Source: Spirochaetales bacterium
Lineage (GTDB): Bacteria > Spirochaetota > Spirochaetia > UBA9216
Direction of reading: 5' to 3'
Length of the DNA stretch: 64,000 nt
Assembly: GCA_016839055.1 (NCBI GenBank)
Contig: JAEKNX010000006.1
Span: 62,001-126,000, forward strand
How positions within the stretch are numbered: the stretch's first letter is position 1; each line of letters opens with the position of its first letter. The notes beneath the pieces are model-generated. The model was not told the DNA's origin. It saw only the letters and a list, made by a program, of their open reading frames with translations, and did no database searches. Positions 15,456-21,494 of this stretch are shown here, one piece after another. A program made the position numbers and the translations under genes.

Positions 15456-17975
15456 TTGGGGTCAACTGGAAAAATTATACCTGTTGCTATTGAAGATGAG
15501 ATGAAAACTTCTTATCTCAATTATGCAATGTCGGTTATAGTAAGCAGGGCGCTTCCCGATGTTCGGGACGGCATGAAGCCTGTACATAGAAGAATTCTTT
15601 ACGCAATGCATGAAATGGGTCTCCGGTCCGACCGAACTTCAAAGAAATGTGGTCGTATTGTTGGAGACGTGCTGGGTAAATACCATCCGCATGGAGATCA
15701 GTCCATTTATGACGCGCTTGTAAGACTAGCGCAGGAATTTTCACTTCGGTATCCTCTTGTTAACGGTCAGGGAAACTTTGGTTCAATAGACGGTGACCCG
15801 CCGGCGGCAATGCGTTATACGGAAGCTAAACTGCAGAAGATTGCAGATGAAATGCTTGTAGATATAAAGAAGGATACTGTAGATTTCGGGCCGAACTATG
15901 ATGACTCAATGGTGGAACCTCTTGTACTGCCTGCGTCTATTCCCAACCTTCTAATAAACGGAGCCAGCGGGATTGCTGTAGGAATGGCAACGAATATGGC
16001 CCCTCATAACCTCGAAGAGGTGTCGGCCGCTATTCAGGCATATATCGAAGATCCGGATATTACGATTGAAGGACTTATGGAGCATGTTACCGGCCCGGAT
16101 TTTCCAACAAGGGGCTTAATTTTCGGCAAGAGCGGTATAAAGCAGGCATATAAGACCGGACGCGGCAGGGTTACAATGAGGGCCCGCTGCTCGCTCGAAA
16201 CGAATAAAACAGGTAGAGACATCATTATAGTTACCGAAATACCCTACCAGGTTAATAAAGTGACTCTGATAAAGAGGATTGCCGAGCTTGTCGCCGAAAA
16301 GAAGCTGCAGGGAATATCCGATCTTCGGGATGAATCCGACAGGGACGGAATAAGGATTGTAATTGAACTTAAAAGGGGAGCTATTCCCAGAGTCGTTCTA
16401 AACCGTCTTTTTATTAATACCCAGCTTCAGCAAAACTTCAATGTAAATGCGCTTGCGCTCGTAAACGGAATGCCGAAGATGCTTACGCTTAAAGACATGA
16501 TTCATTACTTTGTTGAGCATCGAAAAGAGGTTGTTACAAGAAGAACCGCATTCGATCTTAAAAAAGCAAAAGAGCGTGAACACATTCTAATCGGACTTAA
16601 GATTGCCTTAGATAATATTGATGATGTAATTAAAATAATAAAGAGCTCCAAGACTGTAGATATAGCTCGAAGCTCACTTATTGATACCTTCGACCTATCA
16701 GAGAGACAGGCTCAGGCTATTCTTGACATGAGGCTGCAGAGGCTGACAAGTCTGGAAACACAGAAAATACTCGATGAACTTGCCGAACTTCGAGCTCTCA
16801 TAGCCTATCTGGAAGATCTTCTTGCAAACGGATTAAAGATCCTCGGTGTTATCAAGGAAGAGACCATAGCTATTTCTGAAAAATATGGAAACAAGAGAGC
16901 AACCGAGATTGTACTTGAAGAAGCTGAAAAGATAGATATTGAAGATATGATTAAAGAAGAGGACATGGTTGTCCTTATTTCAGGGAAGGGTTTTATAAAA
17001 AGGCTTCCTGTAACAGCATATAAAAACCAGGGAAGAGGCGGAAAGGGTTCGTCTTCGGCTAACCTGAAGAATGAGGACTTCATTGAGCATCTGTTTATTG
17101 GCTCAACCCATGATTATGTGATGTTCATATCTAGTTCAGGAAAAGCCTACTGGATGAAAATACATGAGATTCCCGAAGGTTCAAGAATAGCAAGGGGCAC
17201 GCAGCTTAAAGCCCTGCTTTCAATAGCTCCTGATGAGGAGATTAAAGCAATTGTCTCTCTTAAAGAATTCTCAGATAAACAGTTTATTTTTATGGGAACC
17301 AGACGCGGTATTGTTAAGAAAGTAAAAACAGCTGACTTTTCAAATGCCAAAACCAGGGGAATAATTGCTGTGAAGCTGGACAATGATGATTCGCTTGTCC
17401 ATGCAACTCTTACTTCTGGTGAAGATGATGTATTTCTTGTAACCAAGAAGGGTAATGCGCTCAGATTCCATGAAGCGACGGTCAGGACTATGGGAAGGGC
17501 TACAAGAGGCGTAGCAGGAATAAAACTAAGCGGCGATGATGAACTGGCTGGATTCTTAAGTGTAAGAGAAGGCGAGATGATGCTTGTAATAAGCGAATAT
17601 GGTTACGGAAAGAGAACTGAATATTCTCAGTTTACTCCGCACGGACGCGCGACTCGAGGTCAGATAGCTTATAAAGTAACTGAAAAAACCGGCGAACTCA
17701 TCGGAGTTCTCGCTGTTAGAGAGGACGATGAGCTTGTTTGCATAACTTCACAGGGTAATACCCTTAAACTTGCTATGAATAACATATCATTGATGGGGAA
17801 AAATGCTCTAGGAGTTAGGGTTGTAAACATAAACAAGCCGGATTCGGTCATCGGAGTAGCAAGAGTTGCTAAGGAAAATGATGAAATTATTGAAATAAAT
17901 GAAAGTATTGAAATAAATGAAAGTAATGAAAGTAATGAAAGTAATGAAAGTAATGAAAGTAATGAACTCGAATAA
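15456..17975 (+). CDS. gyrA: DNA gyrase subunit A
   Basis: This 839-residue protein is the DNA-cutting subunit of gyrase. A TTG start (15456) after a G-rich site gives [19 protein letters not shown], the normal N-terminus. The catalytic tyrosine is Tyr121 in [10 protein letters not shown]. In the quinolone region [14 protein letters not shown], Gln82 and Asp86 occupy the positions of E. coli Ser83 and Asp87. The C-terminal beta-pinwheel contains the gyrase-box-like QGRGGKGSS. The extreme C-terminus is an acidic tail of repeated NES units (from about residue 815) coded by 9-bp tandem repeats. The gene ends just before a parS-containing terminator. Confidence 0.97.
17881..17967 (+). repeat. 9-bp tandem repeat encoding the GyrA acidic tail
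   Basis: Units of GAAAGTAAT (and the longer GAAATAAATGAAAGTATT) are repeated head to tail, giving the residues [23 protein letters not shown]. The unit is a multiple of three, so copy-number changes lengthen or shorten the tail without a frameshift. Confidence 0.85.
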
Positions 17976-18000
17976 TTTGTAAAGAAAATAATGACTGCGG

Positions 18001-18036
18001 GGCAGAATGTTTCACGTGAAACATTCTGCCTTTTTC
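18001..18036 (+). terminator. gyrA terminator containing a parS palindrome
   Basis: A perfect 30-base palindrome (18001-18030) with arms GGCAGAATGTTTCAC and the exact inverse is followed directly by TTTTTCTTT. It lies 25 bases after the gyrA stop. The centre of the stem is the parS site. Confidence 0.85.
18008..18023. other. parS centromere site 1
   Basis: TGTTTCACGTGAAACA is an exact match to the ParB-binding parS consensus known from Bacillus and many other bacteria. It forms the middle of the gyrA terminator stem. The parA-parB pair is 1.9 kb away, and oriC is 5 kb away. Confidence 0.95.
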
Positions 18037-18043
18037 TTTGAAC

Positions 18044-18093
18044 AAAAAAAAGCTGCGCCATCGCATTGAGTACAATACGGTAACGCAGCTTTT
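18044..18093 (-). terminator. Intrinsic terminator of the adenosine deaminase gene
   Basis: On the minus strand AAAAGCTGCG and CGCAGCTTTTTTTT form a stem (AGCTGCG/CGCAGCT) with a 26-base loop and a run of T residues. It faces the gyrA terminator, so the two convergent genes are insulated from each other. Confidence 0.75.
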
Positions 18094-18095
18094 AT

Positions 18096-18111
18096 TGTTT
18101 CACGTGAAACA
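18096..18111. other. parS centromere site 2
   Basis: A second exact TGTTTCACGTGAAACA lies 88 bases from the first, start to start. It is in a 20-base palindrome (ATTG...CAAT) between the add stop codon and the add terminator. It is therefore in the 3' untranslated part of the add transcript. Confidence 0.95.
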
Positions 18112-18114
18112 ATT

Positions 18115-19170
18115 TTAAATATTATATGAATCAATCACCTTCTGAGCTTCGGCCCAGAGGTTGTCTTTCTGTTTTTCGGTAAGATAGGATGCATAGACTG
18201 TGTTTTTCATTATATCCAGGAGTTCTTTTTCATTGAAAATTCCTTTGTTGAAAAGAAGAATATACTCATCAACCAGTTCGGATCCGAACAGAGTCGGATC
18301 ATCTGAGTTCAGGGTAACATTCAGCCCCATATCATAAAAGGCCTTAATAGGGTGGTCTTCGAGCTTTGTGACAAATTTCTTGGTAAAAAGATTACTGGTT
18401 GGACATATTTCAAGGGGAATCTGCCGGTTTTTAAGCAGAGTCATCAGCTTTTCATCCTGAATGGCGCTGATTCCATGTCCTATTCTCTGAACATTCAGCA
18501 GGTTAATAGCATCCCAGATAGACTTGGGTCCTACATCTTCACCGGCATGAGCCACTACCTTGAGTTTATTATCTGCCGCTCTCTTGAAAACGGTCTGATA
18601 ATCTTCGGCAGGTCCACTGCTCTCAGCGCCGCCGAGTCCTATACCAATTATGCTCCTCCTCGGATTATTAAGGAGGAGGTCGAGATTATTTTCGGCATTC
18701 TCATTTCCGAAGGTTCTGGAGACATCAATCAGATAATTAACGGTTATTCCCGACTCCTCCTGAATTTTTATCGAGCCTGCCTCAAGAATGTCGACCATAC
18801 GCGAAAAGGAAAATCCGGTCTGGAGAAATTTTGACGGTGCAAAAAAGATTTCTGCGTGAATAATGTTGTTTCGTTCGAGATACTGCTGGGCGTCCTCGAT
18901 CAGATATATAATATCCTGTTCTTTAATGAAGCTGGCCTGAATAATATTTATGAATAAATCTATAAATTCATCAAGGCTGTTCACATTAAATCGTTTTACA
19001 AGATCTTTTTTAGATTTGATTCCATTGAAATTAAGATTATTTTCCTGGATGAGCTTCCAGATTGTCTCGACGCTGATCAATCCCTCGAGATGAAGATGAA
19101 TTTCTGCCTTTGGGATTTCTTTAATTAATTTAATGAAGCTATTATTTCCGGAACTCACCATTTCCCTCAT
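18115..19170 (-). CDS. add: Adenosine deaminase
   Basis: This 351-residue zinc enzyme converts adenosine to inosine. The metal-binding HLHLEG motif is at residues 25-30. HAGED is further in, then RIGHG, EICPTSN and the SDDP motif (NSDDPTLFGSEL) that completes the active site. The length is normal. It is convergent with gyrA, with two parS sites and two terminators between them. It may recycle adenosine released by AhcY (3.8 kb). A relative acting on another purine or aminodeoxyfutalosine is possible, but the motif set favours adenosine deaminase. Confidence 0.88.
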   Translation of the reverse strand: MREMVSSGNNSFIKLIKEIPKAEIHLHLEGLISVETIWKLIQENNLNFNGIKSKKDLVKRFNVNSLDEFIDLFINIIQASFIKEQDIIYLIEDAQQYLERNNIIHAEIFFAPSKFLQTGFSFSRMVDILEAGSIKIQEESGITVNYLIDVSRTFGNENAENNLDLLLNNPRRSIIGIGLGGAESSGPAEDYQTVFKRAADNKLKVVAHAGEDVGPKSIWDAINLLNVQRIGHGISAIQDEKLMTLLKNRQIPLEICPTSNLFTKKFVTKLEDHPIKAFYDMGLNVTLNSDDPTLFGSELVDEYILLFNKGIFNEKELLDIMKNTVYASYLTEKQKDNLWAEAQKVIDSYNI

Positions 19171-19876: not shown

Positions 19877-20635
19877 ATGAATGGTAAGACAGTCGTGTTC
19901 GCGAATCAGAAAGGCGGAGTGGGAAAGACAACCACGGCAGCTAATCTGGGGGCTTATGTAGCGGAAGCCGGAAAAAAGGTATTATTAATTGATTTCGATC
20001 CCCAGGGGAATCTGTCCAGCTGCGTCGGCGCCGACAGGAAAAAAGCTGGAATTTATGAAGTCATAGTCGGCAAAGCTGAGGTTAGTCAGGCTCTGCAGCA
20101 CAGCGCAATGGAAGGAATGGATATTCTATCCTCAAATATCAACCTGACAGGAGCGAATGTTGAATTGATAAATCTTGAGAATAGAGAATATTATCTTAAA
20201 AACAGCATCGCCGAAATTAAAAAATCTTATGATTACATTTTCATTGATTGTCCGCCTTCTCTCGGGATTCTGACCCTTAACGGGTTGACTGCCGCTGATT
20301 CGGTAATCATTCCCCTGCAGTGTGAATATTTCGCTCTTGAGGGATTAAGCCTGCTGTTGCAGACGGTAAAGTCCGTACAGAAAGAACTGAATAAGACCCT
20401 GTCGATTGACGGAATACTCTTTACTATGTACGACTCAAGAACACGTCTCGCAAATGAGGTTGTTCAGGAGGTTTCCGGTTACTTTAAGGACAAGGTTTTC
20501 AGGACCATAATTCCGAGGAACATACGACTCTCTGAAGCCCCCTCACACGGAGTTCCGGTCAATCTCTATGATAAGACCTGTATTGGCGCCAGAAGCTACG
20601 AGAGACTCGCTCAGGAGGTGCTGAACCGTGTCTAA
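19877..20635 (+). CDS. parA: Chromosome partitioning ATPase ParA (Soj)
   Basis: This 252-residue Walker-type ATPase moves ParB-parS complexes during chromosome segregation. The deviant Walker A is KGGVGKTTTAANLG (about 12-25). The A' motif is LLIDFDPQGN, and Walker B DYIFIDCPPSLG lies near 117. It starts at ATG 19877, which has a TATAAT close upstream and no ribosome site. parB follows with an 8-base overlap. Two perfect parS sites lie 1.8 kb upstream. Confidence 0.97.
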   Translation: MNGKTVVFANQKGGVGKTTTAANLGAYVAEAGKKVLLIDFDPQGNLSSCVGADRKKAGIYEVIVGKAEVSQALQHSAMEGMDILSSNINLTGANVELINLENREYYLKNSIAEIKKSYDYIFIDCPPSLGILTLNGLTAADSVIIPLQCEYFALEGLSLLLQTVKSVQKELNKTLSIDGILFTMYDSRTRLANEVVQEVSGYFKDKVFRTIIPRNIRLSEAPSHGVPVNLYDKTCIGARSYERLAQEVLNRV

Positions 20636-21494
20636 GATACCTGCACTAGGAAAAGGAATGGGGGCTTTGATAAATGCTGAATATCGAAGCGATGATGATT
20701 TTGACCGGCAGTCAATATTAGACGTCCCTATAGAAAATGTAAGCGGAAACCCCGATCAGCCGAGAAAATCATTTGATGAAGGCAGCCTGGCTGAGCTTTC
20801 GGCATCCATTAAGGAAAAAGGCGTTATTCAGCCGATTCTTGTGGAAAAAAAAGGGGACTCATATATAATAATCGCCGGTGAGCGTAGATACCGGGCATCA
20901 AAGATGGCCGGTCTTGCCACGGTACCGGTCATTGTCAGGGATTTTTCCGATAACGAAAAACTCGAAATAGCCCTTATAGAAAATATTCAGCGTGAAGATC
21001 TGAATCCTATTGAAGAAGCCAGAGCCTATCATGATTTGATGGCTAGGGCGAACTTCAATCAGGAGGAAGTCGCTCTAAAGGTAGGCAAGAACCGATCGAC
21101 AGTCGCAAACAGTCTCAGGCTGCTTAAGCTTCCGGAAGACATCCAGAAGTCACTTTCCGAGGGGCTGATTTCCGCCGGGCATGCGCGGGCTATTCTCTCT
21201 TTTGATACTGAGAACCAGATGAAAGATCTGCATAAGAAGATTATCTCCGACGGCCTGTCGGTAAGAGAGGCTGAAGGACTTTCCGCTTCAGGTAAGAAGA
21301 GTACAACTAAAAAAAGCGGAAATGGCGGCAGGATTTCTCCACAGGTGAATCCGGAGCTGAGGGGCATTCAGGAAAAATTTATCGATAAATTTGGTACAAA
21401 GGTTAATATTTCCGGAAATCTTCATAAGGGGAAAATCGAAATATCATATTTTTCGATGGATGACCTTGAGCGGCTGTACGAAATTATTAAATGA
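20628..21494 (+). CDS. parB: Chromosome partitioning protein ParB (Spo0J)
   Basis: This 288-residue protein binds parS and spreads as a CTP-dependent clamp. The CTP-binding motif GERRYRASKMAG and the second conserved box ENIQREDLNPIEEARAY are both intact. The helix-turn-helix NQEEVALKVGKNRSTVANSL follows. A basic linker (SGKKSTTKKSGNGG) precedes the C-terminal dimerisation domain. The N-terminus MSKIPALGKGMGALI is the usual ParA-contact segment. It overlaps parA by 8 bases and is clearly co-translated. Confidence 0.97.
   Translation: MSKIPALGKGMGALINAEYRSDDDFDRQSILDVPIENVSGNPDQPRKSFDEGSLAELSASIKEKGVIQPILVEKKGDSYIIIAGERRYRASKMAGLATVPVIVRDFSDNEKLEIALIENIQREDLNPIEEARAYHDLMARANFNQEEVALKVGKNRSTVANSLRLLKLPEDIQKSLSEGLISAGHARAILSFDTENQMKDLHKKIISDGLSVREAEGLSASGKKSTTKKSGNGGRISPQVNPELRGIQEKFIDKFGTKVNISGNLHKGKIEISYFSMDDLERLYEIIK

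Follow-up and report, generated by a model that had tools for sequence, protein, structure and literature searches.

Results

A parS site at the core of the predicted gyrA terminator

In a Spirochaetales bacterium, one of two exact copies of the partition site parS lies at the core of the stem that is predicted to terminate gyrA transcription. It is quite probable, as judged from sequence, that the ParB-loading palindrome was co-opted as a terminator stem, one DNA segment carrying out two separable jobs. The window, that is the whole stretch of DNA analysed, is 64,000 nucleotides in length.

As described in the initial annotation, the first parS site (parS1) is the core of a perfect palindrome of 30 bp (18001-18030) that is followed by a T-run, TTTTTCTTT. 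When G-U pairs are counted, the stem spans 17999-18032 with the loop ACGU, and together with the T-tract at 18031-18039 it constitutes the predicted intrinsic terminator of gyrA (17999-18039, plus strand). A terminator scan recovered the same stem independently (15 pairs, 6 of them GC), and the RNA fold of the hairpin reached -22.4 kcal/mol (z -5.8), an energy as low as this being found in none of 200 shuffles. The hairpin starts about 25 nt past the gyrA stop codon. The element has the features of an intrinsic terminator, namely a stable GC-containing hairpin with a U-tract directly after it, a position 3' of a gene on the same strand, and pairing that is kept in relatives, one family mate (G001) being without the overlap. 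The gyrA transcripts would be expected to end after the parS1 hairpin.

For parS1 we propose the following scheme. As double-stranded DNA, its 16-bp palindrome would load ParB supplied from parAB, 1.8 kb away. As gyrA RNA, the palindrome together with 7 complementary bp and the T-tract would fold into an intrinsic terminator. A parS on its own folds into a hairpin whose loop has 4 nt; for one located at a gene 3' end, the addition of some GC pairs and of a T-tract would therefore suffice to make a terminator. Co-option may have arisen or persisted in spirochaetes, for which nearly all loci read have parS just behind gyrA, and in other phyla; regulatory coupling between the two jobs would not be needed.

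Organization of the locus

The gyrA gene (15456-17975, plus strand) was identified by its match to the NCBIfam model TIGR01063 (1190 bits against a cut-off of 877), and the convergent add gene (adenosine deaminase; 18115-19170, minus strand) by a match to aden_deam above the NCBIfam cut-off; both parS sites are within the gap separating them. The open reading frame at 20628-21494 (plus strand) codes for a ParB/Spo0J family protein (TIGR00180 parB_part, 198.9 bits, cut-off 58.45), and GERRYR is present in its translation. For the product of the reading frame at 19877-20635 (plus strand), none of the 25 matches listed to ParA-type models passed its own cut-off, and the gene is presumably parA, as indicated by the adjoining parB and the gene order. 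The parA and parB genes are located 1.8 kb from the parS pair, and RecF, DnaN, DnaA, GyrB, GyrA and ParB all scored above the NCBIfam cut-off inside 12.4 kb. The segment for the C-terminal tail of GyrA (17919-17963) consists of the 9-bp unit gaaagtaat repeated five times in tandem, giving repeated Glu-Ser-Asn.

The sequence TGTTTCACGTGAAACA, which we take to be the 16-bp palindromic consensus of parS, was detected by exact-motif search at 18008-18023 (parS1) and at 18096-18111 (parS2), neither site being assigned to a strand. The two exact sites between convergent gyrA and add, and their spacing of 88 bp, are as first reported. No further match was present in the window with up to three mismatches allowed, the mean in shuffled windows being 0.31 matches. 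A count across the whole assembly, which had been proposed as a check, gave only these two: a third exact copy was absent from the 5.0-Mb assembly (43 contigs, 97% complete), and the other matches listed had two mismatches. Because parS1 has the exact consensus, is rare in the assembly and is positioned by dnaA and gyrBA, we infer that ParB is loaded there, and parS2 would be loaded as well.

In its exact consensus, origin-proximal position and neighborhood of parAB and gyrBA, the pair is like the chromosomal parS of ParABS systems, and parA and parB are both in the genome, the former with matches below cut-offs. To our knowledge, standard descriptions of parS deal with a DNA site alone; parS1 differs from these in that a predicted terminator stem includes it as well. 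One alternative is that the stem is a terminator only, matching parS by accident and not serving as a ParB site. This is hardly credible, since two exact copies stand side by side near parAB with no other in the assembly, and since parS adjoins gyrA in most of the class loci that were read.

The second hairpin and parS2

A second hairpin, with its T-run on the minus strand, is located between the two sites (18048-18093). It is likely to be the add terminator. Folding indicates that this hairpin forms on the plus strand too, and it may possibly act as a bidirectional element and backup terminator for gyrA. The minus-strand fold of 18045-18125, which combines this hairpin with the parS2 hairpin, gave -33.9 kcal/mol. 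The proposal that the same DNA is both the gyrA terminator stem and a ParB site is supported by the sequence, the fold, the recurrence in both readable genus mates and the statistics elsewhere. The second hairpin was not mentioned in the initial annotation, and it makes parS1 one of two candidate terminators in the gap. This downstream hairpin could mask gyrA read-through past parS1.

The parS2 site is contained in an AT-flanked palindrome of 20 bp (18094-18113) between the add stop codon and the second hairpin. It was considered as a terminator and rejected, having no T-tract of its own and being followed on the add strand by the separate hairpin. It would be a plain second loading site.

The overlap in genus and family mates

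Among four genus mates, the gyrA 3' end was readable in two (G003 and G004). In each, the gap separating the convergent genes gyrA and add contains two parS sites, and one of the two is embedded in a terminator stem on the gyrA strand. The overlap that was to be looked for in relatives was, therefore, present in both readable genus mates; the family mate G001 was without it, both of its parS sites lying between gyrA and add with a hairpin separate from them. In the three-species alignment of the stem, 39 of 39 cells were paired, two pairs showing two-sided and two one-sided change; the covariation of this trio was reached by 52 of 500 shuffles and is, with three sequences only, not significant.

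Another family mate, G002, has a single parS, located after a gene other than gyrA and within an AT hairpin that is weak and has a T-run. Two of its contigs (loci L006 and L011) end in the same parS, so that the two sites counted for this genome are a single one. In G005 no gyrA match to the queried stretch was obtained, and the G006 contig (L232) stops within gyrA, just short of the gene end; assemblies may break at palindromes like parS. A search for parS in these two genomes, with up to two mismatches allowed, listed only sites with two mismatches; per strand there were 8 in G005 and 11 in G006 (3 and 9 for a control pattern).

Survey of the class Spirochaetia

Of the 394 genomes sampled from this class, 284 contained the parS sequence GTTTCACGTGAAAC. 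We read 47 parS loci, taken from the listed class sites and the family loci (L006 and L011 being the same G002 site), and found gyrA in 44 and add in 27. In these loci, which were fetched by parS, the site was within 150 nt of the gyrA end for 42 of 44 distinct ends. Given these two counts, parS is as a rule located behind gyrA in the loci read from spirochaetes.

A terminator-type stem through parS was defined by at least 4 contiguous pairs, at least 2 of them GC, and at least 5 T in the next 8 nt. Such stems were found at 10 of 81 unselected class sites, against 0.33 expected and a maximum of 2 in 500 shuffles of the left flank, and the other 71 sites were not terminator-type; these 81 sites were among the matches listed plus the family loci, rather than from all 284 genomes with parS, repeats and flanks shorter than 20 nt being dropped. 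When only the gyrA strand was considered, a less strict rule yielded a stem at 6 of 44 ends, two of these AT-only; it missed L026, in which the gyrA stop is about 27 nt ahead of the stem.

Among loci chosen mainly for terminator-type stems, the stem was present in 24 of 25. These 24 include 10 gyrA-strand genomes in six families (f1, f12, f26, f8, f24 and f36), with three bidirectional hairpins, and 3 loci with the stem on the parB strand, from three genomes of family f9. The other 11 stems are elsewhere, on other strands, or next to a stop codon that is unsure or ambiguous; L220 (G056) has the hairpin and was kept off the gyrA-strand list for an unsure gyrA stop.

The long palindromes could also have been selected or made at the DNA level, through higher ParB affinity, cruciform formation or quasipalindrome-templated mutation that perfects the flanks, termination being incidental. 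At least 5 Watson-Crick extension pairs were found at 14 unselected class sites, and 5 of the 14 are without a T-rich tail, which agrees with this alternative (association of extension and tail, p = 0.07). The orientation of the stems argues against it: for 71 terminator-type strand-sites, a gene end on the same strand was within 120 nt upstream in 34, compared with a gene on the opposite strand in 9, both strands of bidirectional hairpins being counted. The extensions of bystander parS point the same way, reaching at least 6 pairs in 3 of 56 sites inside open reading frames vs 12 of 57 outside, a difference that coding constraint could also explain. On balance, an origin of the long palindromes at the DNA level is improbable. 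The asymmetry of G-U over A-C that would mark selection on the RNA was 2:0 and 6:4, and 10:7 with the two strands of some sites both counted, with no clear excess of G-U.

Terminator-type parS stems across bacteria

Named bacterial genomes were scanned for parS followed by GCCTTTTT within 2-8 nt, the upstream arm being left unconstrained; 78 stretches were returned, with 79 distinct sites after one of 80 rows was dropped. The upstream arm was fully complementary in 34 of the 79 GCCTTTTT-followed sites, against 1.9 expected and a maximum of 7 in 2000 shuffles. From the scan stretches, 20 genes ending before terminator-type stems were taken to Pfam, and 18 matched a family; some of the stems concerned lack 1-2 pairs of the complete arm, or are formed at a neighboring parS. 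The genes before such stems include parB in Arthrobacter, Paenarthrobacter, Corynebacterium and Oscillospiraceae, and also Psychrobacter dnaJ, rho, mnmG, a class II tRNA synthetase gene, a purine permease gene and a Burkholderiaceae ABC transporter gene. A chance origin of the overlap between parS and terminator was considered as well, and was rejected on the counts in the window, the assembly, the class and all bacteria.

Comparison with known motifs

Uptake signals have been argued to be co-opted as terminators (PMC1852404), and inverted pairs of DUS have been described as functional terminators (PMC2397512), according to the consulted sections of these papers. The present system is like the DUS/USS terminators of Neisseria and Pasteurellaceae, in that a DNA motif recognized by protein machinery doubles as the hairpin of an intrinsic terminator. 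In the DUS/USS case, however, the hairpin is formed from two inverted copies of a motif abundant in the genome, whereas one palindromic copy suffices for parS, of which there are few per genome; the role of the protein also differs, being chromosome partition for parS. Membership of parS1 in the uptake-sequence terminators was rejected, since parS forms the core of the stem in place of an uptake signal of Neisseria or Pasteurellaceae; the two only work alike. Terminators that borrow a motif are a known kind, and the motif borrowed here would be the bacterial centromere. Among the literature matches listed, with most subscription papers outside the search, no title or abstract opening described parS as a terminator stem, and in the consulted parts of parS papers the terminator terms found concerned only vectors or constructs, sequencing dyes or replication terminators.

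With this overlap, the dual-use DNA elements gain a class, represented in several phyla, in which a centromere-like site coincides with a predicted RNA terminator. The overlap may explain the location of some parS sites exactly at gene 3' ends, and it calls for caution, as parS mutants could alter the termination of the upstream gene as well. Such sites are natural templates for studying the coexistence of ParB loading and transcription.

The chromosomal parS of Borrelia burgdorferi is located near oriC, close to parA and parB, and inside a broad ParB ChIP-seq peak (PMC9712426). It is, as here, a spirochaete site near parA/parB, and the consulted sections of that report mention no terminator role. 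In family f20 (0.9-1.9 Mb, probably Borreliaceae), the exact 14-mer of parS was absent from all sampled genomes, which suggests that the site has diverged in this family.

Stem and core at homologous 3' ends

Two sets of homologous 3' ends were picked by gene alone and not by pairing. The first consists of the parB ends of the Arthrobacter luteolus family (Micrococcaceae), best 30 of 80 genomes. An exact parS was within 110 nt in 23 of the 30, and the remaining 7 had no exact parS there. Over 26 sites with up to two mismatches, 90.2% of the cells in the arms were paired and the covariation was 0.558 against 0.145, a value reached by none of 500 shuffles; these shuffles do not keep relatedness. 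A slide of one base reduced the covariation to about 0.17. Two of five measures were barely above the shuffles, namely pairs with two-sided change (8 vs 7.8) and pair types (31 vs 25, reached by 5 of 500). The rule for T-tract and terminator was satisfied at 7 of the 23 exact sites; the failure of the other 16, many with long arms, is in line with selection of palindromes at the DNA level.

The second set is the dnaJ 3' ends of Psychrobacter, best 30 of 60 genomes, in which parS at up to two mismatches was present in 29 of 30 and exact in 11 of 30. For 21 distinct arm pairs, 97.8% of the cells were paired and the covariation was 0.441 vs 0.119. In many of these terminators (L265-L294) the center reads CACATG or CATGTG, the stem and T-tract being kept and the symmetry of parS gone, which is against selection for the palindrome as DNA. 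A Micrococcaceae parB terminator (L237) likewise has a decayed parS core, GTTTCCCGTGAAAA, with its hairpin intact. The altered centers in kept stems indicate that the two functions can separate.

In the initial annotation it was suggested that ParB clamped at parS1 could affect the ends of gyrA transcripts. A closer link between the functions can thus be envisaged, in which ParB at an embedded parS alters pausing or release of RNA polymerase, or newly formed ParB clamps are protected when the polymerase leaves at the T-tract, and partition and 3'-end formation of gyrA or parB regulate each other. The overlap does recur at origin and partition genes (gyrA, and parB in Micrococcaceae and spirochaete family f9), and the Micrococcaceae core is exact in most parB ends even though the arms vary. 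On the other hand, dnaJ, the purine permease and the ABC transporters stand before such stems without an evident link to partition, the Psychrobacter stem persists while its parS center is often changed, and a backup hairpin follows parS1 in the window. A published result also speaks against such a link: according to the consulted part of one report (PMC10681803), clusters of B. subtilis ParB were no roadblock to E. coli RNA polymerase in vitro. Slowing of the enzyme, by about 20%, and an increase in long pauses were reported only for 200 nM ParB, and earlier cases of repression near parS are mentioned there. Mutual regulation is, on balance, a poor candidate. It is likewise unlikely that the parS-terminator fusions are a working device, in which polymerase release at the ParB entry site clears the loading zone or ParB tunes read-through; if they were, the parS at parB ends in Micrococcaceae and family f9 would constitute a feedback between ParB loading and formation of the parB mRNA 3' end.
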